This document shows, one piece after another, positions 9,954 through 25,509 of a stretch of DNA of 33,412 bases. Position 1 is the first letter of the stretch; each line of letters opens with the position of its first letter. Under the pieces are notes generated by a model. That model was not told the DNA's origin. It made no database searches and worked only from the letters and a program-made list of their open reading frames with translations. Source of the stretch: a virus; the IMG/VR virus record IMGVR_UViG_3300047563_000182, positions 1-33,412 of that record; one strand, given 5' to 3'. The position numbers and the translations under genes are program-made.

Positions 9954-9967
9954 GGCCCGATGATGCC

Positions 9968-10425: not shown

Positions 10426-10520
10426 GCGCGCCGATCTACTGGCCGCAAGTGCCCGCCTACACCGGCCAGCGCGCTGTCTGGCCCGCAGGCCTCACCCACC
10501 CGCCAGGAGCAAAGACATGA
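10422..10520 (+). CDS. Micro-gene with aromatic/proline-rich product
   Basis: A 32-residue product starting at GTG 10422 (MSAPIYWPQVPAYTG...). It overlaps the stop of the previous gene (GTGA) and the start of the next (ATGA), so it bridges the two exactly. It would be dismissed by length filters, but the coupled overlaps on both sides and unusual composition support translation. Confidence 0.5.
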   Translation: MSAPIYWPQVPAYTGQRAVWPAGLTHPPGAKT

Positions 10521-10929: not shown

Positions 10930-11144
10930 CCGTTCGCCCAACCCAAATTCGCCCGCTGATGCGCCTTCGCATGTTCTTTCGCGCGGCTTACATCCGCCTG
11001 CTGATGCGCTCCTGCGAACAGGACATCCAGTGGCACCAGCAGACCGCCGAACTGGCCCCGCAGCTGGAAGCCCTGGCCCGACAGCGCCTGGATGAGCTTC
11101 GAGTCGAGTTGATCGACTGCGAGCTCTGCACGCGAAACACCTGA
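10923..11144 (+). CDS. Small phage hypothetical protein
   Basis: A 73-residue protein with a basic N-terminus (RLRMFFRAAYIRLLMRS) and a helical second half (ELAPQLEALARQRLDELRVE) ending in a short Cys-containing tail. It overlaps the membrane-protein gene by seven bases. Function unknown. Confidence 0.65.
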   Translation: MLTVRPTQIRPLMRLRMFFRAAYIRLLMRSCEQDIQWHQQTAELAPQLEALARQRLDELRVELIDCELCTRNT

Positions 11145-11160
11145 CCACGAAAGGAGAACC

Positions 11161-12740: not shown

Positions 12741-12748
12741 GGCGCGCA

Positions 12749-13135
12749 GTGAACGAAGCCGCCCAACAAACCCCGGAGTTCCGCGTGCAGGAAATCAAAC
12801 TGCGCCGCGCCGAAATCAAGGTCGACTTGACGGCCATGAAGCACGCCTACGTGTCAGGCGGCACCGAACGCCCGCACGCCGAGCGTACTGGCCTGGAAGC
12901 CGAGGACGCCGCGCTTGCGCTGGAACTGCTGCGCATTGGCAGCGATGCCATCAAGGCCAAAGCCCAGCGCCGGCAGACCCTCAATGATGGCCTGTTGGGC
13001 CGCCTGTTGCGCCTGCTCCATGCGCGCGGCGATTGGGACATCGCTGTGGAAGCTGCCGGCGCCGACATAGACCTGTCCGAAATCACACCCTGGAGAACAG
13101 CCTCCACCAACCTTGAGGAAGAAACCCGTGTCTGA
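12749..13135 (+). CDS. Phage hypothetical protein
   Basis: A 128-residue, highly charged and helical protein (VQEIKLRRAEIKVDLTAMKH, DAALALELLRIGSDAIKAKAQ). Start GTG 12749, eight bases after the exonuclease. It may be an accessory factor of the recombination pair by position. No family recognised. Confidence 0.72.
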   Translation: MNEAAQQTPEFRVQEIKLRRAEIKVDLTAMKHAYVSGGTERPHAERTGLEAEDAALALELLRIGSDAIKAKAQRRQTLNDGLLGRLLRLLHARGDWDIAVEAAGADIDLSEITPWRTASTNLEEETRV

Positions 13136-14366
13136 CCTTGCATTCCCCGAAATCCTGGCGCTCGCCGACGCCCACCGCTCGGAACTTGCCACGGCCGCCG
13201 CTGGCGCGCTGGACCTGGAGAAGATCAACCTGACCGACCTGGCGCTGGCCAAGTTCGGCGACTGGCGCGGCAGCGTCGCGGCCGTCACCGCGAACCTGGG
13301 CACACTGGTGCTGGACCTGAGCACGCAGGCCAGGGTGAACGACGCCAAGTCGCTGCGCGAGCGGCTGATCAACGTGCCGCGCGCCGATGCCCGCAAGGTG
13401 TCGAAGGCGCTGCGCTCCAAGTTTGCAGCGACCGGCAAGGACGTGGCCGCCGCTGAGGACCAGATCGTTGCAGCGTGGGACCAAACAGAGACGCTGATCA
13501 CGCCCAAGATCGACGCCGCCCAGCAGACCCTGGACGCGGAGAAGGCCGAGAAGGCGCGCATCGAAGCGGAGCGCGTGACCAAGCACCAGGAACGAATCGC
13601 CACGGTTCGCGCGTACTTGACCCGCTGCCAACAACCAGGCATGACTGCTGAGCGCATCGCGCGCGGCATCGCAGCGCTGGAGCCCCTGACATTCGGCCCG
13701 GAGTTTGAAGAGTTCCAGGTGCCGGCCGCGAATGCGCAGTGCGAGACCCTGGAAGCCATGCGCCAGCTGCACGCGCAGGTGCTGGGCCGCGAGCAAGAGG
13801 CCGCCCGCCAGGAACAGATCCGGCTGGAGAACGAGCGCCAGGCCGAGGCCAACCGCATCGAGCGCGAGCGCATTGAAGCCGAAGCGGCCGAGATCCGCCG
13901 TCAGGCCGCGGAACTGGCCGCCGCGCAAGAAGCGCAGCGCCGCGAACAGGTGATGCTGCACGGCGACCCGACTGCGCCGGTGCCGCCTGCCGAAGCAGTT
14001 GTCGCGAACTACCGCACGCCCGTGACCGCTGCCGGCTTCGCTTCGATGGGCGAGCGCTTCACAGACCCGGACCCGGACGCGGCGACCAAGCTGCCCACCG
14101 ACGAAGTGGTGGAGACCATGGATCCGCAGGAAAGCGTGGGCCTGGCCGAAGTCGCGCCGCTGGTCCAGGTGTTCCGCGAAACGGCCGTAGCCACGCTGAA
14201 GCTGGGCGACCTTTCCGCCTGGGCCGGCTTCACGCTGACGCGCGCTTTTGTCGAAAGCCTGGGCATCAAGCCCACGGTGGATGGCGCCCGCGTGTTGTTC
14301 ACTGCGAGCCAGCGCCGCGAACTGAAGACTGCGCTGCTGCGCCACGTGGAAAGCCTGCAGGCATGA
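13128..14366 (+). CDS. Large coiled-coil phage protein
   Basis: A 412-residue protein. The first 130 residues look globular (DLALAKFGDWRGSVAAVTA). Residues about 130-290 hold two long Glu/Arg/Ala coiled coils interrupted by a conserved-looking RAYLTRCQQPGMTAERIARG. The last 110 residues are again globular. GTG 13128 with AGGAAG upstream was preferred to the TTG at 13113. The gene overlaps the preceding stop by eight bases. I know similar proteins beside ERF/exonuclease pairs but not their function. Confidence 0.78.
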   Translation: MSDLAFPEILALADAHRSELATAAAGALDLEKINLTDLALAKFGDWRGSVAAVTANLGTLVLDLSTQARVNDAKSLRERLINVPRADARKVSKALRSKFAATGKDVAAAEDQIVAAWDQTETLITPKIDAAQQTLDAEKAEKARIEAERVTKHQERIATVRAYLTRCQQPGMTAERIARGIAALEPLTFGPEFEEFQVPAANAQCETLEAMRQLHAQVLGREQEAARQEQIRLENERQAEANRIERERIEAEAAEIRRQAAELAAAQEAQRREQVMLHGDPTAPVPPAEAVVANYRTPVTAAGFASMGERFTDPDPDAATKLPTDEVVETMDPQESVGLAEVAPLVQVFRETAVATLKLGDLSAWAGFTLTRAFVESLGIKPTVDGARVLFTASQRRELKTALLRHVESLQA

Positions 14367-15043
14367 GCGAGATCCACGCCTACCGCAGCCGCCGAGGCTT
14401 CAAGGCCCGCATCGGCCTGGCCGGCTACGTCACCCTGCTGGGCTCCATGAGCCGGCACCCGACGGACATCAACAGCCTGGCCATGCGCCTGGGCTGGGGC
14501 CGCGATACCTGCTACCGCCTGGTGCCGCAGTTCCACAAGCGCGGCCGCCTGCACATCAGCGACTGGCGCATCGCGCCCCGCAAGGTGCCGATCGCGATCT
14601 ACGCCTACGGGCCAGGCGAAGACGCGCCCGCCCCGACGCTCACGCCTGACGGCCGCCAGCGCTCACCTGTCCGCATCCTTCGCCCCGAAAAAATGAGCCC
14701 CGAAGTGATCGCCTTCTGCAACGTGCTGGACGAACTGGAAACCGCCAGCAGCATCAAGGAGATCAAGGCCGCCACCGGCATCCACCACGACACCGCACGC
14801 CAGATCTGCGCCGCGCTTCGTCGCGAGAAGCTGGGCTACATCGAACGGTATCTGCCGCGCGATGGCTGCGGCGGCACCTACATGGCCATGTTCAAGCTGG
14901 GCCAGCGCAAGGACGCTTCCTACCCGAACCCCAAAGCCTTGCGCCGCAAGACGGTCAAGGCCTGGCAACAGCGCAGCGCTGCAAACCAGCCCATGCGCGA
15001 CCTGATCGCAGCCCTGCAGCCGCCGGTTGCTCAGGCCGCGTGA
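14363..15043 (+). CDS. Phage protein with two helix-turn-helix segments
   Basis: A 226-residue protein. Two winged-helix-like parts are visible: residues about 30-65 (PTDINSLAMRLGWGRDTCYR, LVPQFHKRGRLHISDW) and about 125-160 (ASSIKEIKAATGIHHDTARQ, ICAALRREKLGYIERY). The C-terminus is basic. ATG 14363 overlaps the previous stop by four bases. It probably binds DNA, as an early regulator or a replication accessory protein. Confidence 0.72.
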   Translation: MSEIHAYRSRRGFKARIGLAGYVTLLGSMSRHPTDINSLAMRLGWGRDTCYRLVPQFHKRGRLHISDWRIAPRKVPIAIYAYGPGEDAPAPTLTPDGRQRSPVRILRPEKMSPEVIAFCNVLDELETASSIKEIKAATGIHHDTARQICAALRREKLGYIERYLPRDGCGGTYMAMFKLGQRKDASYPNPKALRRKTVKAWQQRSAANQPMRDLIAALQPPVAQAA

Positions 15044-15071
15044 CCTTCCACCACCACCGCAAAGGAATCCC

Positions 15072-15437
15072 ATGCCACGCCCGATAACCGACACCCTGCG
15101 CATCCTTCAAGGCGGCGCATTCCTGGACGAGTGCAGCGACCTGCTGGCCGACGTCGTCAAGTCCGTCGACGAGACCGGCAAGGCCGGCCGCTTGACGATC
15201 ACCCTGGACATGAAGAAGTCCGGCGGCGCCCTGGCCATCACGGCGAAGGTGACCAACAAGTCGCCGGAGAAGGCGCCCGACGCCGACCTGTTGTGGCCGA
15301 CCGTCGAAGGCAACCTGTCGATCGACAACCCGGCCCAGCGAAAGCTGGACCTGCGGCCGGTCGATGAGCCCGGCCGCGTGATGCGCAGCGCCGACCCCCA
15401 GACCGGCGAGATCCCCGCGCGCGTGATCGCCGGCTAA
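15072..15437 (+). CDS. Phage hypothetical protein upstream of DUF2303
   Basis: A 121-residue protein, with a helical N-terminus (GGAFLDECSDLLADVVKSVD) and a strand-rich centre (GRLTITLDMKKSGGALAITA, KVTNKSPEKAPDADLLWPTV). ATG 15072 has AAAGGAA upstream. The same arrangement beside DUF2303 recurs in phages, suggesting a common process, but none is known. Confidence 0.75.
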   Translation: MPRPITDTLRILQGGAFLDECSDLLADVVKSVDETGKAGRLTITLDMKKSGGALAITAKVTNKSPEKAPDADLLWPTVEGNLSIDNPAQRKLDLRPVDEPGRVMRSADPQTGEIPARVIAG

Positions 15438-15462
15438 CCCACCACCACCGAGAGAAAACAAC

Positions 15463-16335
15463 ATGCAAGACGAAGTAGTCGAGAACATCGCCGCCACCCT
15501 GGCGAAGGAACTGCCCAGGCCGCAGATCATCGCGTCCTTCCCGGAACCCGGAGGCAGCGCCGTGCCCGGCCTGATCCATGTGTCCCTGCCCAAGGGCTGG
15601 ACCATGGCCCAGGTGGACAACGAGAAGATGCTGCAGAACCCGCGGCGCATCGCGGCAGAAGCCAAGATGTCGGACGCCGCCAGTTTCATCGCCTACGTGC
15701 GGCGCAACCGCCAGCCGGGCAGTGTGGTCTGGTGCGAGTTCAGCCCGACCAGCTACGCGCTGCAGTTCACGGCCGTGTTCGATGAACACCACGCGATGCC
15801 CGGCTGGCGCTCGCACAAGGCGGCCTTCAAGCCCGCACTGTCGGCCGAGTGGGGCACCTGGACCCGCAGCGACAAGCAGAGCAAAAGCCAGGTGAGCTTC
15901 GCCGAGTTCCTGGAACAGAACGAGCAAGACATCAGCGCGCTGGAAGGCTTCCCGACCAGCCTGGCGATGATGAAGATGGCCACGGAGTTCGAAGCCCGTC
16001 AGGACCAGCGCATCAAGTCCACGATCCGCCTGCAAAGCGGCGGCATCGCGCTGGACTACGTGTCCGACTCCGACGCCGGGACCATCGAACGCATGCAGGT
16101 CTTTGACAAGTTCGTCATCGGCATCCCGGTGTTCTGGACCCAGCCGAAGGCCGGCGAGGCCCTGGCCGCGTACCACGTGAAGGCCAGGCTGCGCTATCGC
16201 ATGGACAAAGGCTCGGTGAACTTCTACTACGAACTGATCCGGCCAGACATGGTGCACCAGCGCGCGGCCCTGGAACTGATCGAAGAGATCCGCGCCGGTA
16301 TCGGCGAAACCCCGCTGCTTATGGGCGGCATCTGA
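15463..16335 (+). CDS. DUF2303 family protein
   Basis: A 290-residue protein of the DUF2303 (YfdQ-like) type: an N-terminal helix, VVWCEFSPTSYALQFTAVFD, AFLDEN-like SFAEFLEQNEQDI, and the C-terminal strand region FVIGIPVFWTQPKAG and YRMDKGSVNFYYELIRPDMV. Full length for the family. The function is unknown, although these genes are abundant in phage early regions. It is preceded by a GAGAG ribosome-binding site. Confidence 0.88.
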   Translation: MQDEVVENIAATLAKELPRPQIIASFPEPGGSAVPGLIHVSLPKGWTMAQVDNEKMLQNPRRIAAEAKMSDAASFIAYVRRNRQPGSVVWCEFSPTSYALQFTAVFDEHHAMPGWRSHKAAFKPALSAEWGTWTRSDKQSKSQVSFAEFLEQNEQDISALEGFPTSLAMMKMATEFEARQDQRIKSTIRLQSGGIALDYVSDSDAGTIERMQVFDKFVIGIPVFWTQPKAGEALAAYHVKARLRYRMDKGSVNFYYELIRPDMVHQRAALELIEEIRAGIGETPLLMGGI

Positions 16336-16377
16336 CAACGGCGGCGGCCACGTGCCGCTGCCAGAAAGGACGCGCAC

Positions 16378-16710
16378 ATGGGTGCGATCGAGAACCTGAA
16401 GCCAGAAGTGCGCGCAGCGCTGCTGTTCGCACTGTGGCACCACCAGGGCGCCAGTAGCCCGGTCGGCCAGCCGATCCGCGCGATGCTGGGCATCGGCGAG
16501 TTCGACCACCTGGACCAGGAGCAGCTGACAACGGCGCGCGGCTTGATGCCGCTGACGCTGGTGCGCATGGCCGTGACCGGCTTCTACACAGCGCTGGACC
16601 AGCGCCAGCACGGCGGCGATGCCATGCACAAGGCTTTCCGCGAGGTAGAGGCCGCGCTGGGCATGCAGTGGGCGCAGGGCGCCACGCTGAAGCAGGGAGC
16701 GCCGGCATGA
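16378..16710 (+). CDS. Phage hypothetical protein
   Basis: A 110-residue, mostly helical protein (KPEVRAALLFALWHHQGASS, PIRAMLGIGEFDHLDQEQLT). A ribosome-binding site AGAAAGGA precedes the ATG. Its stop overlaps the next start by four bases. Function unknown. Confidence 0.75.
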   Translation: MGAIENLKPEVRAALLFALWHHQGASSPVGQPIRAMLGIGEFDHLDQEQLTTARGLMPLTLVRMAVTGFYTALDQRQHGGDAMHKAFREVEAALGMQWAQGATLKQGAPA

Positions 16711-17036
16711 GCGCCGAGCACGTGCCGACCTGCCAGTGCGGTGTCCGGCCCGCGGCCGAATGCCCGGGCGCCTGGGAGCATGGCTGCGACCTGGGCAGCA
16801 ACCCGGACCGCGTCAGCGTGGCGCCGCCCGAGCAATCGGCGGCCGTGGACAAGGCGCTGGGCATCGATCGCACCGCCGATGCGATGCTGGTGGCGCGCAC
16901 CGAGGCGAGCGCCCTGCTGGACTACTGCCGGCAGATGGGCCTGGTGCTGACGATCGAACAGGTGCCGCTGCAGCCACTGGCCATGGGCAACTACGTCAGC
17001 CGCGTGAGCGTGCGCAAGGCGCGGGTCGCGGCATGA
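16707..17036 (+). CDS. Phage hypothetical protein with N-terminal Cys cluster
   Basis: A 109-residue protein with four cysteines in the first 30 residues (CQCGVRPAAECPG.WEHGC), possibly a small metal site, and a C-terminal half that looks like a compact alpha/beta unit (LTIEQVPLQPLAMGNYVSRV). It is coupled by four-base overlaps to both neighbours, directly before ninB. Confidence 0.72.
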   Translation: MSAEHVPTCQCGVRPAAECPGAWEHGCDLGSNPDRVSVAPPEQSAAVDKALGIDRTADAMLVARTEASALLDYCRQMGLVLTIEQVPLQPLAMGNYVSRVSVRKARVAA

Positions 17037-17482
17037 CCGAAGCGCGCATCTTCAACCTGGTGCACGCCGAGGCGCGCCGTCGCGCGGCCGCGTACATCGT
17101 TGACGATGCGCCGGCCGGCTGGCGCGTCACGGTCAAGCCCCAGGCGAAGCGCCGGATCCAGGAAGAGCGCTACCACGCGATGTGCGGCGACTTCGCTGCC
17201 CAGTGGCCTTTCGCGGGCAAGCACTGGCACAAGGACGACATGAAGCGGCTGCTGGTCGACGCCTTCGCGGAAGCGATGCGCCAGGCCGGCACGCCGCTGC
17301 ACCACGACGGCCGCGTCGTGCCCAGCATCGACGGCCTGCGCGTCGTGCAACTGGGCATCCAGACCAGTGACTTCTACGTCAGCGAGGCTTCGCAGTTCAT
17401 CGAGTACCTGTTCGCCTTCGGTGCCGACATCGGCATCAAGTGGTCGGACGAAGCCAAAGCGCCGCGGACGGTGCCGGCATGA
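17033..17482 (+). CDS. ninB: NinB recombination protein
   Basis: A 149-residue protein matching lambda NinB/Orf in length and pattern: GWRVTVKPQAKRRIQEERYH, AMCGDFAAQWPFAGKHWHKD, WK-like KRLLVDAFAEAMRQ. NinB binds single-stranded DNA and SSB and helps load annealing or RecA-type recombinases in place of RecFOR. It fits with the ERF/exonuclease pair upstream. The residue after the lysine-rich loop is E-E-R rather than the more usual D-Q-N. It overlaps both neighbours by four bases. Confidence 0.85.
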   Translation: MTEARIFNLVHAEARRRAAAYIVDDAPAGWRVTVKPQAKRRIQEERYHAMCGDFAAQWPFAGKHWHKDDMKRLLVDAFAEAMRQAGTPLHHDGRVVPSIDGLRVVQLGIQTSDFYVSEASQFIEYLFAFGADIGIKWSDEAKAPRTVPA

Positions 17483-17688
17483 ACCGCTGCGAAGCCTGCG
17501 GCCGCCGCCTGGTCAGCGAGGAAAGCCAGCGCCTGGGCTTTGGCCCGGTGTGCGTTGAGCGCCAGCGCGCCCGCGGCTTCGTCTTCGGCGGCAAGGCCAG
17601 GCCCAGCGTGCTTGTGCGGCCGGCGACCCGCTGGAAGCGCCGCAAGCCAGCGCCTGGCCAGCTGCCCCTGCCGGGACTTGATCCATGA
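17479..17688 (+). CDS. DUF6011-like zinc-ribbon protein
   Basis: A 69-residue protein with the pattern CEACGRRLVSEESQRLGFGP then VCVER, a single zinc-binding knuckle of the DUF6011 type (name recalled from memory). The C-terminus is basic and Pro-rich. It sits between ninB and an HNH gene with four-base overlaps. Confidence 0.75.
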   Translation: MNRCEACGRRLVSEESQRLGFGPVCVERQRARGFVFGGKARPSVLVRPATRWKRRKPAPGQLPLPGLDP

Positions 17689-18011
17689 AGCGCATCAACA
17701 GCGCCGACCGCCGCGAATTGCGGGTGAACCTGTGCAACCGCTACGGCGGCCGCTGCAGCTACTGCAACACGTCGGCAGGGCTGCGCTCTGGCACGGTCGA
17801 CCACTACCTGCCCGAGGCGCTGGGCGGCGGCAACGAGCGAGCGAATCTGCGCTGGTCTTGCTTGGCCTGCAACCATGCGAAGGACTGCATGCACCCGAAT
17901 GAGTGGGAGCGCGTGCGCCCCACCTTGCGGCCCTGGGTCGAAACGCCGGCGGATGCCAAGGTGCGGATCCTGCAGCACATCGCCAGGCTGGCGCGCGGTG
18001 TGTCGGCGTGA
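17685..18011 (+). CDS. HNH endonuclease
   Basis: A 108-residue protein with a classical zinc-type HNH: CSYCNTSAGLRSGTVDHYLP, then EALGGGNERANLRWSCLACN. The first His is in VDHYLP, the Asn in NERANL, and the metal-binding cysteines form two pairs. Short phage HNH proteins act as nicking enzymes in packaging, recombination or homing. Here, among ninB-type genes, a recombination or junction-processing role is possible. Confidence 0.88.
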   Translation: MKRINSADRRELRVNLCNRYGGRCSYCNTSAGLRSGTVDHYLPEALGGGNERANLRWSCLACNHAKDCMHPNEWERVRPTLRPWVETPADAKVRILQHIARLARGVSA

Positions 18012-18505
18012 CCTGGACCACCTTCAAGCCCAAGGGCTACGCACCGAGGCCGGCAAAGCAGCTGGACGGCTACACGCCGCGGCCGCGCGCGCCGGCGCTC
18101 CTGACCATGGCCGGCCCTGGTCTGCTGATGGCGATGGTGAAGCCGGCCCCGAAGTTTTCCTATGTGCGCGATGAGCGACTGCGCGCTATGTGCCGCGCCA
18201 TGGCCTGCCAGCACTGTTTCGGCGCCACCTGCGGCAACCAGGGCGTGACGTGGGCCCACAGCAACCAGGCCCGCCACGGAAAAGGCAAGTCCATCAAGGC
18301 ATCGGACCAGTTCGTCGCGGCCATGGGCACCGCCTGCCACGCGGAACTGGACCAGGGCAAGACACACACCCAGGCGCAGAAGGTCGCGATCTGGGAACGG
18401 GCCCACGCGCGCACCGTCGCGCTGGCGCTGCAGCTGGGAGCCTGGCCGGCCGGCGTGCAGGTGCCGGGGATTGAACTAGGGGCCATCAATGCCGGTGAAA
18501 CCTGA
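18008..18505 (+). CDS. DUF1364/YbcO-like nuclease
   Basis: A 165-residue protein. Residues about 58-120 carry the YbcO pattern: RLRAMCRAMACQHCFGATCG, VTWAHSNQARHGKGKSIKAS, and GTACHAELDQGK. YbcO-type proteins are HNH-related nucleases found in the nin region of lambdoid phages. GTG 18008 overlaps the previous stop (GTGA). It ends 17 bases inside the next gene. Confidence 0.82.
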   Translation: MTWTTFKPKGYAPRPAKQLDGYTPRPRAPALLTMAGPGLLMAMVKPAPKFSYVRDERLRAMCRAMACQHCFGATCGNQGVTWAHSNQARHGKGKSIKASDQFVAAMGTACHAELDQGKTHTQAQKVAIWERAHARTVALALQLGAWPAGVQVPGIELGAINAGET

Positions 18506-18920
18506 GAACGCGGCCCGCTACCCGAAGGACTGGCCAGCCATCAGCCGCGACGCGAAAGAGCGCGCCGGCTGGCGCTGCGTGCACACAGACGAGCACGGCA
18601 GCCGCTGCCGCGCGAGCCAGTACGCCGTCGGTTTCTGGCGCATGGGCGTGTTCCTGCCGAGCGCGGAGGCTGGCGCGACCTTCAAGGAATCCCGCCAGCA
18701 TGCGGCCGAGCTCTATCACTCCCTGGGCGAGGAAGGCGACCGGCCCACCGTCATCGTGCTGACCACCGCCCACCTGGACCACCAACCGGAGAACTGCGCG
18801 CTGGCGAACCTCGCGCCCATGTGCCAAAGACATCACCTGGCATACGACCACCACCACCACCGAGCGAACGCCCAGGCCACGCGCCGCGCGAAGGCCGGCA
18901 CGCTGGAGCTATTCGAATGA
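18489..18920 (+). CDS. HNH-like nuclease
   Basis: A 143-residue protein. It opens with WPAISRDAKERAGWRC, with a second cysteine in SRCRAS, and closes with LTTAHLDHQPENCALANLAP then MCQRHHLAYD, an HNH-type metal site with His, Asn and a terminal Cys-x3-His-His. It is the third nuclease-type gene in a row. It may use a different substrate from the two before it; sequence alone does not tell. Confidence 0.82.
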   Translation: MPVKPENAARYPKDWPAISRDAKERAGWRCVHTDEHGSRCRASQYAVGFWRMGVFLPSAEAGATFKESRQHAAELYHSLGEEGDRPTVIVLTTAHLDHQPENCALANLAPMCQRHHLAYDHHHHRANAQATRRAKAGTLELFE

Positions 18921-18961
18921 GCGCGGCGCCTAACTTTCTTATCTATGGCGCACCTTAACGC

Positions 18962-18990
18962 TTGACGGCTTGTTATCTTTGGCGTACATT
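18962..18990 (+). promoter_or_regulatory. Repeated promoter, copy A
   Basis: -35 TTGACG (18962-18967), 17-base spacer ending CTTTGGCG, -10 TACATT (18985-18990). The block CTTTGGCGTACATT is shared with copies B and C (copy D lacks the CT/TT start). The bases just downstream (TGGTGTGGGTTG) are shared with copy D. Confidence 0.75.
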
Positions 18991-19039
18991 CTTGGTGTGG
19001 GTTGAGCGCTTCGCGAAACCCGGCAACAAGGAGAGCGCC

Positions 19040-19768
19040 ATGCAAGTCGAGTCCAGTCTTCAAGTGGTCAAGGGCCAGTGCATCGTCTATACGGGCGATA
19101 TGTGCAACGCCAGCGGCCGCGGCGCCATTGTGGCCGTGGTGCCGCAAGTGGCACGCCCGGGCGGCCTGGTCGGCCAGATGTTTTCGATGGACTGGAAGGC
19201 CGGCAAGATGGTGCCGGTTGACTCCAGCTTCACGTTCGACGTGGCGCTGGAAGACGGTCGGCTGATCCGCGGCATGTACGTCAGCAGCATCGGCGAAAGC
19301 GGCGGCTGCCGGTTCCGTCTGGTCGAAGGCATGGTCAGCGAAGAAGAGATTGCCGGGCTGCTGGCCGGTGTGGCCCTGAAGAAGGCCAGCGACGAAGCGG
19401 CCGAAAAGGCCAAGAACGAAGCGTTCGCTGCTGCGAAGGCGGTGGCCCTGGAGGCCGGCCTGAAGCTGGGCCTGATCCCCGAAGACAAGTTCCGCGAGAT
19501 GGGCAAGCGGGGCAGCGCCGCGGCCAGCAACATGCGCGCCGAACTGAAGGCGGCCGGCATCAAGGCCCGGGTCAAGCAGGACGGCTACAGCGCGATCAAC
19601 GTCTACGTGGCCAAGGCCGAAGAGAAGGAAGCCGCCAGCGCGATCGCGGACAAGTACGAAGACGGCTACTTCGACGGCATGCAGGACATGCACGTTTCGG
19701 TGCCCAACCCCTGGGGCAGCGCCTTCGGCCAGGTCGACTATGTCTTCTGCTACGTGGAGCGCGAATGA
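19040..19768 (+). CDS. Phage protein with LPD29-like C-terminus
   Basis: A 242-residue protein. The first 100 residues are strand-rich. A Lys/Glu/Ala helical linker (KKASDEAAEKAKNEAFAAAK) follows. The last 80 residues (MRAELKAAGIKARVKQDGYS, AINVYVA, YEDGYFDGMQDMHV) resemble LPD29, a domain of large polyvalent phage and plasmid proteins. AAGGAGA ribosome-binding site, 50 bases downstream of promoter A. Function unknown. Confidence 0.72.
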   Translation: MQVESSLQVVKGQCIVYTGDMCNASGRGAIVAVVPQVARPGGLVGQMFSMDWKAGKMVPVDSSFTFDVALEDGRLIRGMYVSSIGESGGCRFRLVEGMVSEEEIAGLLAGVALKKASDEAAEKAKNEAFAAAKAVALEAGLKLGLIPEDKFREMGKRGSAAASNMRAELKAAGIKARVKQDGYSAINVYVAKAEEKEAASAIADKYEDGYFDGMQDMHVSVPNPWGSAFGQVDYVFCYVERE

Positions 19769-19974
19769 AAGACTACCTGCTGTCTGTGTTCCTTCCCCTG
19801 CCGGCCGGTCACACCTTCGTGCTGGTCTGCCGGGTCAAGGTGGAACAGTCGCTGGCCTGGGTGAAGGCCCACGCCGACGAGATCGCCACGCGGGCGGTGG
19901 CCGATGACAAGGTCGCCCAGAAGATCAACGCGGGCGCTTATGTCGCCCTGAGCGTGGAAGCCGCGCCGGCCTGA
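19765..19974 (+). CDS. Small phage hypothetical protein
   Basis: A 69-residue protein, two predicted strands (YLLSVFLPLPAGHTFVLVCR) then a helix (SLAWVKAHADEIATRAVADD). ATG 19765 overlaps the previous stop by four bases. Promoter B follows its stop directly. No family recognised. Confidence 0.68.
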   Translation: MKDYLLSVFLPLPAGHTFVLVCRVKVEQSLAWVKAHADEIATRAVADDKVAQKINAGAYVALSVEAAPA

Positions 19975-19989
19975 AGTCACAAGTTTTCC

Positions 19990-20018
19990 TTGCGCCTTCC
20001 GCGTCTTTGGCGTACATT
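19990..20018 (+). promoter_or_regulatory. Repeated promoter, copy B
   Basis: -35 TTGCGC (19990-19995), 17-base spacer with TCTTTGGCG, -10 TACATT (20013-20018). The upstream AAGTTTTCCTTG is shared with copy C, so the repeat extends to about 45 bases. Confidence 0.78.
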
Positions 20019-20054
20019 ATCTATATGCCGGGGCGGTCCTGGCGGGAGATGAAG

Positions 20055-20255
20055 ATGGCGGCAAAGGTGGTGATGCTGGTCAGCCCCGAAGGGGAACTTA
20101 TGGGCTGGCGCCGCGAGGTTCCCCGCAGCCTCAAGGCTGCATGGCGCGAGGCCGTGAGCGAAGCACTCAAGGCCGGCGCCGAAGTCTGGGAGTGCGCATC
20201 GCGCAAGCGCGTGATCCCGTGGGACGGCCGGATGTCGGCACTCAAGCTGCGGTGA
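20055..20255 (+). CDS. Small phage hypothetical protein
   Basis: A 66-residue protein (MAAKVVMLVSPEGELMGWRR...) with a short strand start and a helix (LKAAWREAVSEALKAGAEVW). ATG 20055 has GGGAG six bases upstream, which favours it over ATG 20049 and over the earlier ATG that would lie inside promoter B. Function unknown. Confidence 0.66.
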   Translation: MAAKVVMLVSPEGELMGWRREVPRSLKAAWREAVSEALKAGAEVWECASRKRVIPWDGRMSALKLR

Positions 20256-20303
20256 GCAGCGTCCAGCCCTGCGGCTGGCCAGTGTTCACGAAAGGAGAAC
20301 GGA

Positions 20304-20639
20304 ATGGGCTGGACTGTTTTGAACAAGGCACCCGCTGAAGGCTGGAAATCCTTCCTGGATGCGAACTACGCAAGCGCCGAAACGAAGGTGCTGCGGTCGC
20401 AGATCGTTGGCGGCGTCTACTACGCGGCGGTCAAGTGCGCCAGCGGTTCGGTCGTCGCGATCGTCACGCTGATCGAGGGCGGCGGCTGGAAGACGATGGA
20501 CGAGAGCATGGGCCCGTACTACTACGACTGCCCGGCTTCGGTGCTGTCGCTGCTGACGCCGACGAAGTACGAATCGGCCCTGAAGTGGCGTGCGAAGTGC
20601 GGCATGGTCGACATCGCGCAGCAGCTGGAGCTTTGCTGA
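20304..20639 (+). CDS. DUF6927-like phage protein
   Basis: A 111-residue protein of a widespread phage and plasmid family (DUF6927 from memory). Conserved parts: GWTVLNKAPAEGWKSFLDAN, SQIVGGVYYAAVKCA, then KTMDESMGPYYYDCPASVLS and the end WRAKCGMVDIAQQ. Strong AAAGGAGAA ribosome-binding site. Role unknown. Confidence 0.82.
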   Translation: MGWTVLNKAPAEGWKSFLDANYASAETKVLRSQIVGGVYYAAVKCASGSVVAIVTLIEGGGWKTMDESMGPYYYDCPASVLSLLTPTKYESALKWRAKCGMVDIAQQLELC

Positions 20640-20821
20640 TGCCGGCCGACATGGGCCAGGCCCGGCTTGACGCGCTGCGCCAGTCCTTTGAGCGCCTGGT
20701 CGGCGATCGCGATTCCTACGGCCTGAAGCGCTCGCGCCGCGGCACCTACGTGAACCCGGCGATCGCGCGAGACTGGAAGTGGTTTCAACTTGGCGCAGCT
20801 GCGCAGAAAGGATTCCCGTGA
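20639..20821 (+). CDS. Small phage protein
   Basis: A 60-residue protein with an N-terminal helix and a conserved-looking GTYVNPAIARDWKWFQLGAA end, a phrase common near the termini of phage accessory proteins. ATG 20639 shares one base with the preceding TGA; the stop overlaps the next GTG. Confidence 0.7.
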   Translation: MPADMGQARLDALRQSFERLVGDRDSYGLKRSRRGTYVNPAIARDWKWFQLGAAAQKGFP

Positions 20822-21675
20822 GCACAACCGAACTGGTCCCCAGCGTCAGCATTGCCAACATGGTCAACCAGCGCGCGGCCGTCATGGCGCGCCTGGAGCA
20901 GGCCGCCGACCTGATCCGCGAAGCGCACGGCATCGCCGTCGAAGCGCACCTGGGCATGCCCCGCCTGACGGTGGCCACCGGCTTGTCCCGCGGATCCAGC
21001 GAACGCAGCATCGCCGGCGCCCGGCTGAAAGCCCCGAGCCGCGACGGCAGCACCTATGAACAGGATGAGTCCGACCGCGGCGAAGTGGCGAAGATGTTCC
21101 GCCTGGGCGTCGATGCGTCGGCCTGGCAGTACCTGATGCACGAATCCGGCCTGCGGTCGCTCATGGACCAGAAGGCCCGCGAGACCTGGGACAAGGCCAT
21201 CATGGACGGTGACATTCCAGAGCTCACCGATGCCAACATCCGCAGCACCTTCAAGATGCTGCACGACGGCCGCGGCGATATGTTCGAACGCGGCGTGATC
21301 GCGTGCTTCAAGTCTCTGGCCTGGTGCTACAAAACCAACCTGCCGCAGAAGTTCGGCAAGCGCATCGTGGTCAATTACCTGACCAGCGGCTGGAGCAGCG
21401 GCAAGACCGACCACATGGACGACCTGATGCGGGTCCTGAGCGTGCTGGACGGCAAGCCGGAGCCCGACTACCGCGGCGGGATCTATGCGCTGCTGCGCCA
21501 GGGCGGTCTGAGCGGCTGGCCCAGCAAGGCCGGCCAGGTGGAGAACGCCTACATGGTGATCAAGACCTTCAAGAACGGCAACGGCCACGTGACCTTCAAG
21601 CGCCTGGACCTGGTCGACAAGATGAACCTGATCATCGCGAAGCACTACCCCGGAGCGCTGCCGGCTCCGAAATAG
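20818..21675 (+). CDS. DUF4942 family protein
   Basis: A 285-residue protein of the DUF4942 family, which is frequent on plasmids and phages. Visible signature pieces are FRLGVDASAWQYLMHESGLR, SLMDQKARETWDKAIMDGDI, FERGVIACFKSLAWCYKTN and KRIVVNYLTSG, followed by a C-terminal KTFKNGNGHVTFKRLDLVDK. Function unknown. GTG 20818 overlaps the previous stop by four bases. Promoter C lies just after its stop. Confidence 0.87.
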   Translation: MSTTELVPSVSIANMVNQRAAVMARLEQAADLIREAHGIAVEAHLGMPRLTVATGLSRGSSERSIAGARLKAPSRDGSTYEQDESDRGEVAKMFRLGVDASAWQYLMHESGLRSLMDQKARETWDKAIMDGDIPELTDANIRSTFKMLHDGRGDMFERGVIACFKSLAWCYKTNLPQKFGKRIVVNYLTSGWSSGKTDHMDDLMRVLSVLDGKPEPDYRGGIYALLRQGGLSGWPSKAGQVENAYMVIKTFKNGNGHVTFKRLDLVDKMNLIIAKHYPGALPAPK

Positions 21676-21688
21676 TCGCAAGTTTTCC

Positions 21689-21717
21689 TTGTGTTCCGGC
21701 CGTCTTTGGCGTACATT
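21689..21717 (+). promoter_or_regulatory. Repeated promoter, copy C
   Basis: -35 TTGTGT (21689-21694), 17-base spacer ending GTCTTTGGCG, -10 TACATT (21712-21717). It shares AAGTTTTCCTTG upstream and ATTAT.TAT downstream with copy B. The likely 5' leader contains a CCGCGACGGTCGCGG hairpin. Confidence 0.78.
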
Positions 21718-21756
21718 ATTTATGTGCGCCGCGACGGTCGCGGTAAGGGGAACGAG

Positions 21757-22005
21757 ATGGCAAAGCAGGAATGGCGGATGGCCCAGCGGGTCAAGCCCGT
21801 CGGCGTGGCCGGCATCGAAGCGATCATCAAGATCGCCGAAGAGGGTTTCGGCAAGGTCAACGAAGTCGCGGTCGACAGCTTCAGCGCCAGCGCCGTGAAG
21901 GCGGTGTGGGCCGGCCTGAACGAGGCCAACAAGGCGAAGCTGGCGGCCCTGCCGGTGGTGCGGGTCTGTGAGATCAGCCTGAAGCTGTGCCGGGTGGCAG
22001 CATGA
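21757..22005 (+). CDS. Small phage hypothetical protein
   Basis: An 82-residue helical protein (GVAGIEAIIKIAEEGFGKVN, SASAVKAVWAGLNEANKAKL). ATG 21757 has AAGGGGA upstream; the longer frame would begin inside promoter C. Its stop overlaps the ATG at 22002. Function unknown. Confidence 0.68.
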   Translation: MAKQEWRMAQRVKPVGVAGIEAIIKIAEEGFGKVNEVAVDSFSASAVKAVWAGLNEANKAKLAALPVVRVCEISLKLCRVAA

Positions 22006-22513
22006 AGTATTCGAAGAGAAGGCCCAGAAGATCATCGCCTGGGTCATGGCCGAGTTCGGCGCGAAGGCCGACCACAGTGACTTCGAATTCAACGCGCTGC
22101 AGTTGCTGGAGCGGGAGCGGGCGCAACCCACGCGGTTCGCGATCCTGACGGCCCTGGTCGGCGTTTACGACAAGGCCTTCGAAGAGCGCGTGAAGCGTGA
22201 GGCGATGGTGAACGAGTGGGTCGGCCAGGCCGGCCAACGCCGCGACTTCGAAGCGGTGTTCTCCGGCTGCCACAGCTTCGATACGGACTATGGCTGGATG
22301 TGCATCGCCAGGTTCTACACGCCCGAAGGCCTGCTGGTCTACAAGGGCGCGACGGTCTGGTGGGAAGCGAAGGAAGGCGACACGGTCAAGTTCAAGGCCT
22401 CGATCAAGGCGCACGCCGACTGGAAGGGCCAGAAGCAAACGCTAATCCTTCGCGCGAAGCAACTGGGCGCGGCGATCGCGGCGCCGGCGGCTGAAGAAAA
22501 CGCTTGCGCCTAA
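22002..22513 (+). pseudogene. Phage gene with an apparent one-base deletion near its start
   Basis: ATG 22002 overlaps the preceding stop in the usual ATGA way, but its frame soon becomes Arg/Ser-rich. The conserved-looking product (VFEEKAQKIIAWVMAEFGAK onward, ending TLILRAKQLGAAIAAPAAEE) continues in another frame. Adding one A to the ATGAAG at 22002 would give an uninterrupted protein beginning MKVFEEK. Either the gene has a one-base loss or the sequence has an error in the A run. Without repair, the first in-frame ATG is 22046, with no ribosome-binding site, giving 155 residues. Family not recognised. Confidence 0.6.
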
Positions 22514-22532
22514 CGCATCATTGGCGTACATT
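22504..22532 (+). promoter_or_regulatory. Repeated promoter, copy D
   Basis: -35 TTGCGC (22504-22509), 17-base spacer ending TTGGCG, -10 TACATT (22527-22532). The -35 lies inside the last codons of the preceding gene. It shares TGGTGTGGGTTG just downstream with copy A. Confidence 0.75.
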
Positions 22533-22581
22533 AATGGTGTGGGTTGGAGATGTCCTCCGGCCCGGTTCCCTGGAGATCGAG

Positions 22582-22845
22582 ATGGCCTACTACCTTGTCA
22601 AGCACCACAGCGGCGGCGCCGCTGGTGAGGCGGCCGCTGCGGTGATCGTCGCGGAGATGGAAGCGGCCGGCCTGCTGGGCGTGGCGCGGTTCGTGCCGGA
22701 AGTCGGCGGCGGCGCCTGGGTCGAGTTGGTGCGGAGCGAAGCGGAGATCGCGGAAGTGGTGGCCATGGAATTCGCGCTGGGTGAATACCTGGTGGCGATC
22801 GCGGCCGCGAAGAAGAGCGCGAAGGCTGCTCTGGCGGCGGCCTGA
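22582..22845 (+). CDS. Small Ala-rich phage protein
   Basis: An 87-residue protein beginning MAYYLVKHHSGGAAGEAAAA, with a Val/Glu middle and a Lys/Ala helical tail. The ATG has GGAGA seven bases upstream and lies 50 bases after promoter D. No family recognised. Confidence 0.65.
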   Translation: MAYYLVKHHSGGAAGEAAAAVIVAEMEAAGLLGVARFVPEVGGGAWVELVRSEAEIAEVVAMEFALGEYLVAIAAAKKSAKAALAAA

Positions 22846-22864
22846 ACCCTGGAAGGAGAGCGGG

Positions 22865-23089
22865 ATGTGCAAGAAAGTGTCCTACGTCGCGAAGAGCGGC
22901 GCGAAGCAGTGGAAGCCGTCGCTGGCCTGGGCGATGAAGTCTGCCGAACGGTCTGAAGGATTCTGCCTGGCCTGCGGTGAAGTGGCTGACGGCGTCGAGC
23001 CCGATGCCCGGAAGTACGAATGCGAGTGCTGCGGCGCCGCGAAGGTCTACGGCGGCGAAGAGCTCGCGCTGATGGGTCTGGTTCACTAA
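22865..23089 (+). CDS. Small zinc-ribbon phage protein
   Basis: A 74-residue protein with two cysteine pairs (FCLACGEVADG and YECECCGAAKVYGG) forming a plausible zinc ribbon after a basic N-terminus (MCKKVSYVAKSGAKQ). AAGGAGAG ribosome-binding site. A related CxxCG...CxCCG arrangement occurs in many short phage proteins of unknown role. Confidence 0.75.
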   Translation: MCKKVSYVAKSGAKQWKPSLAWAMKSAERSEGFCLACGEVADGVEPDARKYECECCGAAKVYGGEELALMGLVH

Positions 23090-23105
23090 CCTGAAGGAGA
23101 TCGAG

Positions 23106-23414
23106 ATGTTCAACCAAGTGTCAGCAAACATCGCCGCCCAGAAGCAGGCCGGCCTGTTCGAAGACAGCGCCGAAGACTTCGCGCTGGTGGCGCAGGACAA
23201 GAAGGGCAACGATGTCGAAGCCGAAGCGGTCGCCGCGGCGCCTGCAGGGTTCAAGGCGGTCGACGCAGCCGACCCGGAAAAGCCGTGTGTCGGGTGCGCT
23301 TTCTGGGCGTCGCGGAATGGGTCCTGGGCCGGATGCGACAAGCCGATCGGCGCGTGCGGCTGCGCCCCCTTCAGCCGGGACGATGGCCGGCTGGTGATCT
23401 TCGTGAAGGCGTGA
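23106..23414 (+). CDS. Cys-rich phage hypothetical protein
   Basis: A 102-residue protein: an acidic N-terminal half (FEDSAEDFALVAQDKKGND) and a C-terminal Cys-rich unit (EKPCVGCAFWASRNGSWAGC, GACGCAPF) with five cysteines, likely a metal site. GAAGGAGA ribosome-binding site, 16 bases after the previous stop. Function unknown. Confidence 0.68.
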   Translation: MFNQVSANIAAQKQAGLFEDSAEDFALVAQDKKGNDVEAEAVAAAPAGFKAVDAADPEKPCVGCAFWASRNGSWAGCDKPIGACGCAPFSRDDGRLVIFVKA

Positions 23415-23421
23415 CTACAGC

Positions 23422-23441
23422 AGCCTGCCCGGCGGCAGGCT
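23422..23441 (+). terminator. Short hairpin between small genes
   Basis: AGCCTGCC (23422-23429) pairs perfectly with GGCAGGCT (23434-23441) around CGGC. The following CTTGTGG has only a weak T content, so it may attenuate or protect mRNA rather than terminate fully. Confidence 0.45.
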
Positions 23442-23466
23442 CTTGTGGTCGAACTAGGAGAGCAAC

Positions 23467-23712
23467 ATGGGCGAGAAGAAAGTCAGCGCGCTGGCCGAAG
23501 GCCTGGCAGGCGCGATCAAGATGCAGCGCGAGCGCCAGGGCAAGCCGGATCGCGGCTTCGGCAGCTGGCGGGCGCCGAACGACAGTGCCGGCATGCTGTT
23601 CTACCTGGCCGGCTACCTGAACAAGCAGGACCCGGAAGCCAGCGCGCTGCTGCAGGAGATTGGCAACATGGTCCGCGAAGAGCTTGCGGCCGCGAAGGGA
23701 GTGGCGGCATGA
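23467..23712 (+). CDS. Small phage hypothetical protein
   Basis: An 81-residue protein with an N-terminal helix and the piece RGFGSWRAPNDSAGMLFYLA, then a second helix. AGGAGAG ribosome-binding site. It is coupled to the next gene by a four-base overlap. Not recognised. Confidence 0.7.
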   Translation: MGEKKVSALAEGLAGAIKMQRERQGKPDRGFGSWRAPNDSAGMLFYLAGYLNKQDPEASALLQEIGNMVREELAAAKGVAA

Positions 23713-23897
23713 AGGTCTACGTGGCAGGCGCCGGCAAAGACGCCGGCAAGGGCCTTCTGGTGGACGTGGGCGCCATCAAGGGAGCGGAGCGGTGGACGCG
23801 GGACCGCCGCGAGGCGATGCATCTGACGCAGGCCCAGGCCCGCAAAGTGATCGATGTCTTGCGCCGGGCCGGCATCACGGCCGCGGCAAGTTCCTGA
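23709..23897 (+). CDS. Small phage hypothetical protein
   Basis: A 62-residue protein: MKVYVAGAGKDAGKGLLVDV, then a basic helix (LTQAQARKVIDVLRRAGI). The start overlaps the previous stop. The two-strand plus helix outline could suit a small RNA- or DNA-binding unit, but there is no recognised family. Confidence 0.68.
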   Translation: MKVYVAGAGKDAGKGLLVDVGAIKGAERWTRDRREAMHLTQAQARKVIDVLRRAGITAAASS

Positions 23898-23910
23898 AAG
23901 GCGCAGCAGC

Positions 23911-24096
23911 ATGAAGACCTACATCGTCACGGTCCAACAGACCGAGACCCGGAAGTTCACCTTCAAGGCCGCCAGCGAGGCGGAAGCGAAGGCCAAAGCC
24001 GAAGCGTGGAACGAGAGCCCCACGGGCGACTGCCCCGAAGGCTGCGACGACTATGACTTCGGCTTCGTCAGCGACACCATCGTGGAGGAAGCATGA
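23911..24096 (+). CDS. Small phage hypothetical protein
   Basis: A 61-residue protein beginning MKTYIVTVQQTETRKFTFKA, then a helix and an acidic Cys-containing end (GDCPEGCDDYDFGF). The layout is that of a family of short phage proteins with a beta-alpha core. Its stop overlaps the next ATG. Confidence 0.7.
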   Translation: MKTYIVTVQQTETRKFTFKAASEAEAKAKAEAWNESPTGDCPEGCDDYDFGFVSDTIVEEA

Positions 24097-24335
24097 GCGG
24101 CAACCTGATCAAGTTCATGGGCGTGCTGGCCGACCAGTACGCCGTCCTGTTCAAGGAACAGCCCCAGGTCTACAGCCTGGCCGCGCAGCGCTACAGCCCG
24201 TCGGGCCTGGCCGAAAAGATGACGATGAGCCTGAAGAAGCGCGAAGGCGACAAGGACGGCGAAGGCATCAAGCGCACGTGCAAGGCGCTGGGCATCCCGC
24301 ACACCTACAAAGCGATCGAAGCGTACCTGCTATGA
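24093..24335 (+). CDS. Phage hypothetical protein
   Basis: An 80-residue protein of a family I have seen in many phages, with the C-terminal signature KDGEGIKRTCKALGIPHTYK. The N-terminus (MSGNLIKFMGVLADQYAVLF) is helical. Coupled by overlaps to both neighbours. Function unknown. Confidence 0.78.
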   Translation: MSGNLIKFMGVLADQYAVLFKEQPQVYSLAAQRYSPSGLAEKMTMSLKKREGDKDGEGIKRTCKALGIPHTYKAIEAYLL

Positions 24336-24655
24336 GCGACTTCCTAAACCAGGCCGGTCAGATCGCCGGCGCTCTGCGCTTCGCGCTGAAGTCCGCGATC
24401 ACGGAAGTCGGTGCCGTCGAAGCCCTGGCCCTGCGGCCGCTGTCGGCCACCGCGGCGCAGCTGGAAGCGGATCTGCTGGCGCTGCTGGCAGCCCAGGAGC
24501 GCGACAAGCCGCGCCAGGTCGGTTTCATGTACGCCGATGATGCGGCACAATTACCGGTCGTCGGCCGCGCCTTCGTTTACCTGGAGCGGCAGGCCTTCAC
24601 CGTCAGTCAGGACCCCGGCTGCACCCCTGTATTCACCCGTGAGAACGCATCATGA
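24332..24655 (+). CDS. Phage hypothetical protein
   Basis: A 107-residue protein with a long helical first part (AGQIAGALRFALKSAITEVG, AQLEADLLALLAAQERDKPR) and a strand-rich end (VGRAFVYLERQAFTVSQDPG). Overlaps the previous and next genes by four bases. No family recognised. Confidence 0.7.
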   Translation: MSDFLNQAGQIAGALRFALKSAITEVGAVEALALRPLSATAAQLEADLLALLAAQERDKPRQVGFMYADDAAQLPVVGRAFVYLERQAFTVSQDPGCTPVFTRENAS

Positions 24656-24825
24656 ACAAGACCGAAGAAAAGCAGGAGCGCCTGAAGCCTGGCCCGAAGC
24701 CGCTGCCGCCGGAGTACCTGCGCACCGGCCGCCTGAGCATGCGCACGTACCCGGACATCGAGGCGAAGGCGCGCCGGCTGGGCACGGAGCGGGTCGAAGA
24801 GATGATCAGGCGGGCCAAAGAATGA
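24652..24825 (+). CDS. Small basic phage protein, last clear gene of the plus operon
   Basis: A 57-residue protein: KPGPKPLPPEYLRTGRLSMR then a helix (IEAKARRLGTERVEEMIRRA). Start overlaps the previous stop. Two further tiny frames (10 and 14 codons) follow before the terminator and are not annotated. Function unknown. Confidence 0.65.
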   Translation: MNKTEEKQERLKPGPKPLPPEYLRTGRLSMRTYPDIEAKARRLGTERVEEMIRRAKE

Positions 24826-24926
24826 ACACGGCCGCGGTGGAGCCGACCAGATGAGCATTGACCCCCTAACTGACCGCGATCTGCAGGCCTGGTGATCACG
24901 GGCGTGCGGAAGCCATAGCATCCGCC

Positions 24927-24960
24927 AGGCCGGCCGCCCATGAGGGCGCCGGCCTTTGGT
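24927..24960 (+). terminator. Terminator of the plus-strand operon
   Basis: A strong GC hairpin: AGGCCGG, one unpaired base, CGCCC, loop ATGA, GGGCG, CCGGCCT, then TTTGGTT overlapping the last stem base. It sits between the end of the plus-strand genes and the convergent minus-strand HNH-like gene. Confidence 0.75.
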
Positions 24961-24974
24961 TCCACGTTCAACAA

Positions 24975-25292
24975 TTACGCCGGGCTAACGGTCAAGGCGG
25001 CCGCCATCGCCTTGTGGTGCGCCATGTGGCACGAACGACACAGCCACCGGATCTGCAGCGGCTTGTCATAGTCGTCATGGTGCATCTGGGCCTTTTCGGC
25101 GTTGCACGCTTCGCACGGCTGCCGTTGCAGCTTCCCGCGCCGCAGGTACATCCCGGCGTAGCTCCTGGCATTGTCTTTCTTGGCCTGCTCAGGAGTCAGC
25201 GGATGGTCCTTGCGCCAGGCGCGCATATACACAGCCTGGCACGGGTTGCACTTCTTCATGCCAGGACCGTTCGGAGCGCCGCACTTGCACAT
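24975..25292 (-). CDS. HNH-like zinc protein
   Basis: A 105-residue protein. An N-terminal knuckle (CKCGAPNGPGMKKCNPCQAV) is followed by YMRAWRKDHPLTPEQAKKDN and a C-terminal HNH-like site: CEACNAEKAQMHHDDYDKPL then WLCRSCHMAHH. This combination is common in phages and usually annotated as a putative HNH endonuclease. It is the last gene of the late minus-strand block and faces the plus-strand operon. Confidence 0.82.
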   Translation of the reverse strand: MCKCGAPNGPGMKKCNPCQAVYMRAWRKDHPLTPEQAKKDNARSYAGMYLRRGKLQRQPCEACNAEKAQMHHDDYDKPLQIRWLCRSCHMAHHKAMAAALTVSPA

Positions 25293-25474
25293 GCCGAGAA
25301 TTCTACGGCAACAATGCCATCCGGCCTACTTGCACCAAGTGCGACCGCATAGCACAATTCGTGCCTAGCGCGAAAGTCGCACGCCGCGCGTGCAAAAGGG
25401 CTGGCCGGCAGGCAGGCCCGGATTCCCCGAACGGGCAAGCTGACGATACGGTCGCCCGCGCGCCATGGCCAGGA
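25293..25474 (-). other. Non-coding gap after the lysis module
   Basis: No supported gene. The stretch separates the lysis-module hairpin from the HNH-like gene. A TAGAAT close to the HNH start is too near the ATG to be a good -10, and I found no matching -35. Confidence 0.5.
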
Positions 25475-25509
25475 ACGGCCCCGGATGCTCTGCAGGCACC
25501 CGGGGCCGT
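25475..25509 (-). terminator. Hairpin after the lysis module
   Basis: A perfect ten-base stem, ACGGCCCCGG/CCGGGGCCGT, with a 15-base loop and TTCC after it on the minus strand. It lies just after the small membrane gene at 25517-25621. The T run is short, so termination may be partial. Confidence 0.6.

Follow-up and report, generated by a model that had tools for sequence, protein, structure and literature searches.

Four copies of a promoter-like repeat, each ahead of a cluster of small genes, in a viral genome

Here we describe a promoter-like repeat that is present in four copies, A to D, in the virus record IMGVR_UViG_3300047563_000182. The window, that is, the whole stretch of DNA analyzed, covers positions 1 to 33,412 of this record (33,412 bases), and the copies lie on its plus strand within a region of small genes. 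All four have TTG at -35, a 17-base spacer ending in TTGGCG, and then TACATT at -10, as the first-pass annotation of this DNA had described. Each copy heads a gene cluster, here called a module.

Copy A, 18962..18990, plus strand: -35 TTGACG, 17-base spacer, -10 TACATT; heads module A; in the 119-base gap 18921-19039, the longest of 14
Copy B, 19990..20018, plus strand: -35 TTGCGC, 17-base spacer, -10 TACATT; heads module B; in the 74-base gap 19975-20048
Copy C, 21689..21717, plus strand: -35 TTGTGT, 17-base spacer, -10 TACATT; heads module C; in the 81-base gap 21676-21756
Copy D, 22504..22532, plus strand: -35 TTGCGC, 17-base spacer ending in ATTGGCG, -10 TACATT; heads module D; in the 68-base gap 22514-22581

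The sequence TTGGCGTACATT occurs exactly four times in the window, always on the plus strand (at 18979, 20007, 21706, and 22521), and never in 100 dinucleotide-preserving shuffles; the motif search over the whole window that the first-pass annotation had proposed returned these four exact copies and no others. The A-D family also ranks first in a repeat search of positions 10500-25500. The four sites score 38 to 42 bits with a profile built from the sites themselves, so that high scores arise by construction; the runner-up place scores 15.8, and the simulated maximum is 15.5 (20 sequences). The longer element TTTGGCG, previously presented as conserved throughout, is found in three of the four copies, copy D having ATTGGCG. 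Two look-alikes were considered. The first, A' (18936..18958, plus strand), is degenerate and lies 34 bases upstream of copy A in the same gap; it has 6 of 23 mismatches to A, which chance alone equalled at best in a set of 30 simulated windows, and a profile score of 9.9. It is possibly a decayed tandem promoter. The second, at 24524-24546 on the minus strand, has 4 of 23 mismatches to D (best in 30 simulated windows, 6). It was not counted as a fifth copy: it is located inside the plus-strand gene 24332-24655 and lacks TTG at -35.

The plus strand at 10923-24825 carries a chain of 32 genes, all open and with usual starts, in which 14 noncoding gaps make up 621 of 13903 bases; the gene choice is our own, based on frame composition and ribosome sites. 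The copies occupy the four longest of these gaps (119, 81, 74, and 68 bases). Two apparent gaps that would exceed them, of 316 and 141 bases, are in fact coding (24332-24655 and 23709-23897, respectively). The distance from the end of the -10 to the next start codon is 49 bases for A, 30 for B, 39 for C, and 49 for D. Every copy lies ahead of a gene start and outside coding sequence, the position of a promoter, except that the -35 of copy D overlaps the end of the preceding gene. As in a repeated promoter family, the four copies stand before four different gene clusters, whose genes are tightly packed, with 4-base overlaps with the preceding gene at 19765, 20818, 23709, 24093, 24332, and 24652 and a 1-base overlap at 20639. 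No further plus-strand copy is present in 22865..24825.

Module A, gene 1, 19040..19768, plus strand: 242 amino acids (aa), LPD29 (Pfam PF18847, E 2.2e-6, 28.7 bits versus a cut-off of 27)
Module A, gene 2, 19765..19974, plus strand: 69 aa, no family
Module B, gene 1, 20049..20255, plus strand: 68 aa, no family above cut-off
Module B, gene 2, 20304..20639, plus strand: 111 aa, no family
Module B, gene 3, 20639..20821, plus strand: 60 aa, no family
Module B, gene 4, 20818..21675, plus strand: 285 aa, DUF4942 (Pfam PF13708, E 3e-52, 177.5 bits versus a cut-off of 25)
Module C, gene 1, 21757..22005, plus strand: 82 aa, no family
Module C, gene 2, 22046..22513, plus strand: 155 aa, no family; true start uncertain
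Module D, gene 1, 22582..22845, plus strand: 87 aa, no family
Later genes behind copy D, plus strand: 22865-23089, 23106-23414, 23467-23712, 23709-23897, 23911-24096, 24093-24335, 24332-24655, 24652-24825

The first genes of the four modules have no Pfam family in common, a comparison made at the level of Pfam and not by all-against-all protein alignment. The N terminus of the DUF4942 protein has a sub-threshold match to kleA_kleC (18.4 versus a cut-off of 25). In module C, the reading frame of gene 2 contains neither a stop nor a usual start codon between the preceding gene and ATG 22046 (22006-22045), and gene 2 either begins at an unusual codon or is entered by a frameshift from its predecessor.

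Conservation among the copies is block-wise. The first-pass annotation had noted sequence shared upstream of B and C and downstream of A and D, and indeed AAGTTTTCCTTG is present in both B and C, and TGGTGTGGGTTG in both A and D.

Upstream block of B, 19979..19989, plus strand: ACAAGTTTTCC, of which AAGTTTTCC is identical in C
Upstream block of C, 21678..21688, plus strand: GCAAGTTTTCC, of which AAGTTTTCC is identical in B
Downstream block of A, 18993..19004, plus strand: TGGTGTGGGTTG, common to D (12/12)
Downstream block of D, 22535..22546, plus strand: TGGTGTGGGTTG, common to A (12/12)

The TTG is identical (3/3) in all six pairs of copies, and the 15-base core is 14-15/15 identical in all pairs. 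The 11 bases that separate these two parts agree at 3/11 positions in B/C and 1/11 in A/D, and at 1-3/11 in five pairs overall. Outside them, the upstream block (-29 to -18) is 11/12 identical in B/C, 6/12 in A/D, and 2-3/12 in the remaining four pairs, and the 18 bases downstream are 12/18 identical in A/D and 6-9/18 in the other pairs. When the copies were aligned locally with the core and the TTG masked, the B/C score was matched by 0 of 2000 shuffles and that of A/D had a P of 0.0005; B/D was weak (P 0.047), and A/B, A/C, and C/D had no shared sequence. This patchwork of shared flanks (A/D, B/C, and weakly B/D) suggests that the copies probably arose by duplication or exchange inside this lineage. 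Two parts kept at a fixed distance, with the bases between them lost, would be expected from recognition by a protein and not from a recent copying scar. We see in this fixed-spacing conservation the strongest argument that the sequence offers for a two-part protein contact such as that made by RNA polymerase.

We consider it likely that the four sites are one phage promoter family, read by the host RNA polymerase in the manner of sigma-70 and joined into one regulon through TTGGCG. The host polymerase would start at each site from the TTG at -35 and the TACATT at -10, 17 bases apart, and each start would yield a short leader, of 24-43 bases on the assumption that transcripts start 7 bases past the -10, and then a gene cluster of its own, made up of small rightward genes. 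TTGGCG, which is invariant and asymmetric and immediately precedes the -10, would be the probable recognition site that joins the four operons, and plasmid-type cargo (LPD29 and DUF4942) and genes without family would be switched on together. Copies would have spread in the lineage by duplication or exchange, after which drift would have randomized the parts that are not read. The earlier proposal that these promoters divide the region into modules agrees with the position of the copies in the four longest gaps, with a packed cluster behind each, and with the block-wise conservation; promoter activity itself is predicted from the sequence. TTTGGCG is a plausible binding element for a regulator, whether a phage repressor or activator, although sigma itself could be the reader through direct contacts. 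If this proposal is right, the repeat shows which of the small genes without family are coexpressed and so confines their role to one common infection phase; it also provides a sequence handle for finding the regulator.

Several observations weigh against this interpretation. In a sigma-70 consensus scan with a threshold of at least 9/12, only copy A passes, B, C, and D reaching 7/12 by our count, and the yield of one site compares with a shuffle mean of 1.6. Indeed, the -35 hexamers of B, C, and D (TTGCGC, TTGTGT, and TTGCGC) match the consensus at 3/6 positions by our count, and the TG of an extended -10 is absent from all four copies. Given this poor consensus without an extended -10, TTGGCG may compensate, via a regulator or by direct sigma contact. 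The bases between the TTG and the core are not unrelated in every pair, since they are 8/11 identical in B/D (P 0.012 for such a maximum). No dyad is common to the four copies in any shared frame. Among the scanned proteins no convincing regulator was found, weak matches only: 14363-15043 to a PHROG called transcriptional regulator (E 0.0019) and 9717-10223 (minus strand) to a PHROG called DNA binding protein (E 0.0075). Terminator-like sites in the scanned part number 12, versus 11.8 expected, which is no excess over chance, so that the modules may also be transcribed through. Finally, the gene starts and the chain with its 14 gaps depend on our own gene choice.

Candidate dyads and folds were also considered. 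Copy C has an 8/10 inverted repeat around its -10, which in the same frame is 4/10 in A, B, and D; a frame that gives 5/6 in B gives 2-3/6 in the other copies. Neither was retained as the common element. The four leader RNAs are no better folded than shuffles (z 0.29, -0.42, 0.01, and -0.84), and RNA leader structure was likewise rejected. The last gene of the chain (24652-24825) encodes a protein of 57 aa without a Pfam or PHROG match, whose sequence looks by eye like that of small ribbon-helix-helix regulators; it is a possible candidate for the missing regulator.

The proposal of a shared promoter family can be carried further, to a plasmid-style establishment regulon in which the plasmid-type cargo and the small proteins without family are distributed over four operons; on entry or upon induction, all four would be activated at once by way of the asymmetric 12-base element over the -10, with a phage regulator as the reader. 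We regard this extended version as rather unlikely; if true, it would make the genes without family candidates for host-takeover or anti-defense functions. As for the mode of control in the promoter family, the analogy with IncP-1 plasmids points to a repressor that an entering genome would not yet meet. However, the lack of a palindrome speaks against the IncP-1 class of repressor: KorC sites are palindromes, and an inverted-repeat scan that detects promoters of the Acidovorax plasmid pYSCONJ finds none at A-D. Moreover, no KorC relative was found among the scanned window proteins.

Alternatively, the repeat could serve chiefly as an operator, or as something like a stoperator, for a single DNA-binding protein of the phage, with sites scattered over the intergenic gaps and the likeness to a promoter being secondary. 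The invariant 12-mer does exceed what sigma-70 needs, the -35 elements of B, C, and D are poor, and the copies all lie in gaps in one orientation. Nevertheless, a distance of 17 bases to TTG that is fixed in four of four copies, with diverged bases between, fits a promoter and not a lone operator, the sites have no conserved dyad, and no candidate protein is established. We hold this explanation to be improbable.

The first-pass annotation had further suggested that the repeats serve as recombination points for swapping modules, and the occurrence of the repeat elsewhere bears on this idea. The 14-mer TTTGGCGTACATTA is found in 97 stretches of viral contigs, with more than one copy only in the stretch L031. 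The others are mostly AT-rich, look unrelated by eye, and were taken as chance. Requiring CTTG at -35 leaves eight stretches, of which L031 has four copies and the other seven one exact copy each. Three of these seven, from the low-GC viral contigs L194, L195, and L196, are near-identical to each other here and are accompanied, 248 bases away, by a second promoter-like site with 2 mismatches; TTGGCGTA and an equally spaced TTG are common to both sites. L031 belongs to a sister contig of 15815 bases that is 99.95% identical to the window over 9850 bases. The five differences all fall at 17601-18601 and none in 18602-22555, and modules A-C are identical and collinear. We also fetched 89 loci (L103-L191) around relatives of LPD29, DUF4942, and Erf and scanned them for at least 3 identical promoter-like repeats; such repeats occur in 2 of the 89, both from the sister contig, with no case among reversed controls, indicating that the repeat is not common in related phages. 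The pattern TTG-N13-W-TTGGCGTACATT is absent from all 399 genomes in the order of G001 (which holds locus L199, titled Rubrivivax sp.), and as far as these genomes go it is not a general host promoter.

Exchange of gene modules between phages at the repeats could draw on the phage's own Erf-like annealing protein and RecE-like exonuclease, and it would suit the patchwork flanks, the first module genes without a common Pfam family, and the end of the sister contig in the leader of copy D. Yet the copies agree exactly over short stretches only, 12 to about 17 bases long, and recombination would not by itself retain TTG and lose the next 11 bases. The earlier note had proposed comparing the genes between copies in related phages; the one other holder that we found is near-identical and has the same modules, the DUF4942 relatives are without the repeat, and no relative with a swapped module was found. 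These comparisons do not support module swapping, to which we give only a slim chance. At window position 22555, 23 bases past the core of copy D, the sister contig stops, which could reflect strain variation downstream of D or an assembly accident; this end falls just beyond the block shared by A and D, though the shared run is only 12 bases. Away from the promoter repeats, the two contigs do differ by a module: about 0.7 kb of the window (8508-9232) is replaced by different sequence of about 2.4 kb in the sister (L112, 140-2501). Beside it lies a minus-strand open reading frame of 235 aa (8528-9235) whose first part matches a DEAD/SNF2 helicase and whose last part matches the end of an N6_N4 DNA methylase, perhaps a fusion or deletion remnant.

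As single-stranded DNA, the gap of copy C folds well (z -3.57, 0 of 200 shuffles) and that of B moderately (z -1.77, 9 of 200), and those of A and D have z scores of -1.30 and -0.29. That the repeats are single-stranded promoters like the plasmid Frpo, active from folded single-stranded DNA, would fit the plasmid-type cargo and the folding of C and B but is hardly credible: no stable hairpin presenting the -35 and -10 is common to the copies, A and D being near chance and B and C pairing in different frames that are not kept in A or D, and the DNA of tailed phages enters the cell double-stranded.

The plus strand at about 10.9-24.8 kb encodes the Erf-like annealing protein, the RecE-like exonuclease, a DUF2303 protein, NinB, and HNH endonucleases, followed by the small genes; the minus strand encodes tail fibre, baseplate, and endolysin proteins at the right and an O-like replication protein at the left. 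No head or packaging genes turned up among the scanned window proteins, which are a selection. Within the phage collection, the best relatives of Erf are from Xanthomonas phages. In genome contigs, DUF4942 relatives were found at two loci, in a Rubrivivax and a Burkholderiales metagenome-assembled genome. In the annotated collections, relatives of the LPD29 protein occur in 10 of 72,556 plasmid records and 0 of 50,697 phage records, and DUF4942 matches occur in at least 5000 plasmid records, strongly biased to Enterobacteriaceae, and in 31 phage records.

Four plasmids with DUF4942 (L205-L208), chosen by similarity and not at random, were examined, and in two of the four, copies of one promoter or leader stand before successive gene clusters. 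In pYSCONJ (L205), TTGCAAAAGGGCACAAATGCCCTTATAAT and TTGCACAAGGGCACAAATGCCCTTACAAT precede the DUF4942 gene and an operon that lies some 2 kb beyond it. The plasmid from Burkholderia contaminans (L207) has a long repeat in five of its intergenic gaps, one of which precedes DUF4942, and a single 18-mer recurs inside the repeat in all five. These repeats (at 2075, 4896, 6316, 8547, and 10326, with 300-base stretches 95-96% identical among three of them) divide a region of small genes, DUF4942 and DUF932 among them, and may be leading-region promoters of the single-strand type. The Methylibium (L208) and Pseudomonas (L206) plasmids yielded no promoter whose spacer holds an inverted repeat; in the latter, long repeats of a different type lie between genes near DUF4942. 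In the phage contigs L109 (899-932) and L111 (7950-7982), the DUF4942 gene has a single promoter with the palindrome CCCTGCAWTGCAGGG in its spacer, likely an operator. When promoters must have an inverted repeat that lies between their hexamers or covers them, a scan retrieves two in pYSCONJ and one each in L109 and L111.

A literature search on repeated promoters and repeats in phages, made by topic and not by sequence, returned no title reporting this sequence. Repeated intergenic promoters in viruses are already known: the halovirus HF2 has near-identical intergenic repeats, and nine cloned repeats all had promoter activity (PMC8707807). The likeness lies in several near-identical intergenic repeats within one tailed virus. 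In contrast, the HF2 promoters are archaeal, and the repeats, of 58 and 29 bases, are conserved across a virus genus, whereas those described here are read from sequence alone and were found in no related phage beyond the sister contig. Repeated signals before small genes are also known in mycobacteriophages (PMC3203893, PMC4351075). In cluster K, start-associated sequences, like the present repeats, are short and asymmetric and precede a subset of nonstructural phage genes; they typically sit at the ribosome site, separated by 3-7 bases from the start codon (PMC3203893), whereas A-D lie 30-49 bases upstream of it and have promoter spacing.

Other parallels come from plasmids. The klc-kle operons of IncP-1 plasmids are controlled by the shared repressors KorC and KorA and switched on at entry into a new cell (PMC7314908), and they resemble the modules in comprising several small-gene operons, which in the phage would likewise be under shared control, as well as through the sub-threshold KleA/KleC-like N terminus of the DUF4942 protein; unlike in the KorC system, the phage core is not palindromic. 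In the leading regions of conjugative plasmids, entry-phase gene clusters lie behind related Frpo promoters (PMC11541004), an arrangement that the phage modules resemble, as does the B. contaminans DUF4942 gene among its five long-repeat copies. Frpo sequences are long and fold, while the phage repeat is short and without a shared fold. Closer in form is the DUF4942 region of pYSCONJ, where the promoter copies consist of TTGCA(A/C), the spacer AAGGGCACAAATGCCCT, and TA(T/C)AAT, with the conserved part again in the spacer; that part, however, is of unrelated sequence, contains an inverted repeat with 7-base arms, and is present in 2 copies in the 12.8 kb examined. The location of DUF4942 in regions divided by one regulatory sequence, in this phage and in two plasmids, suggests a shared expression strategy for such cargo.

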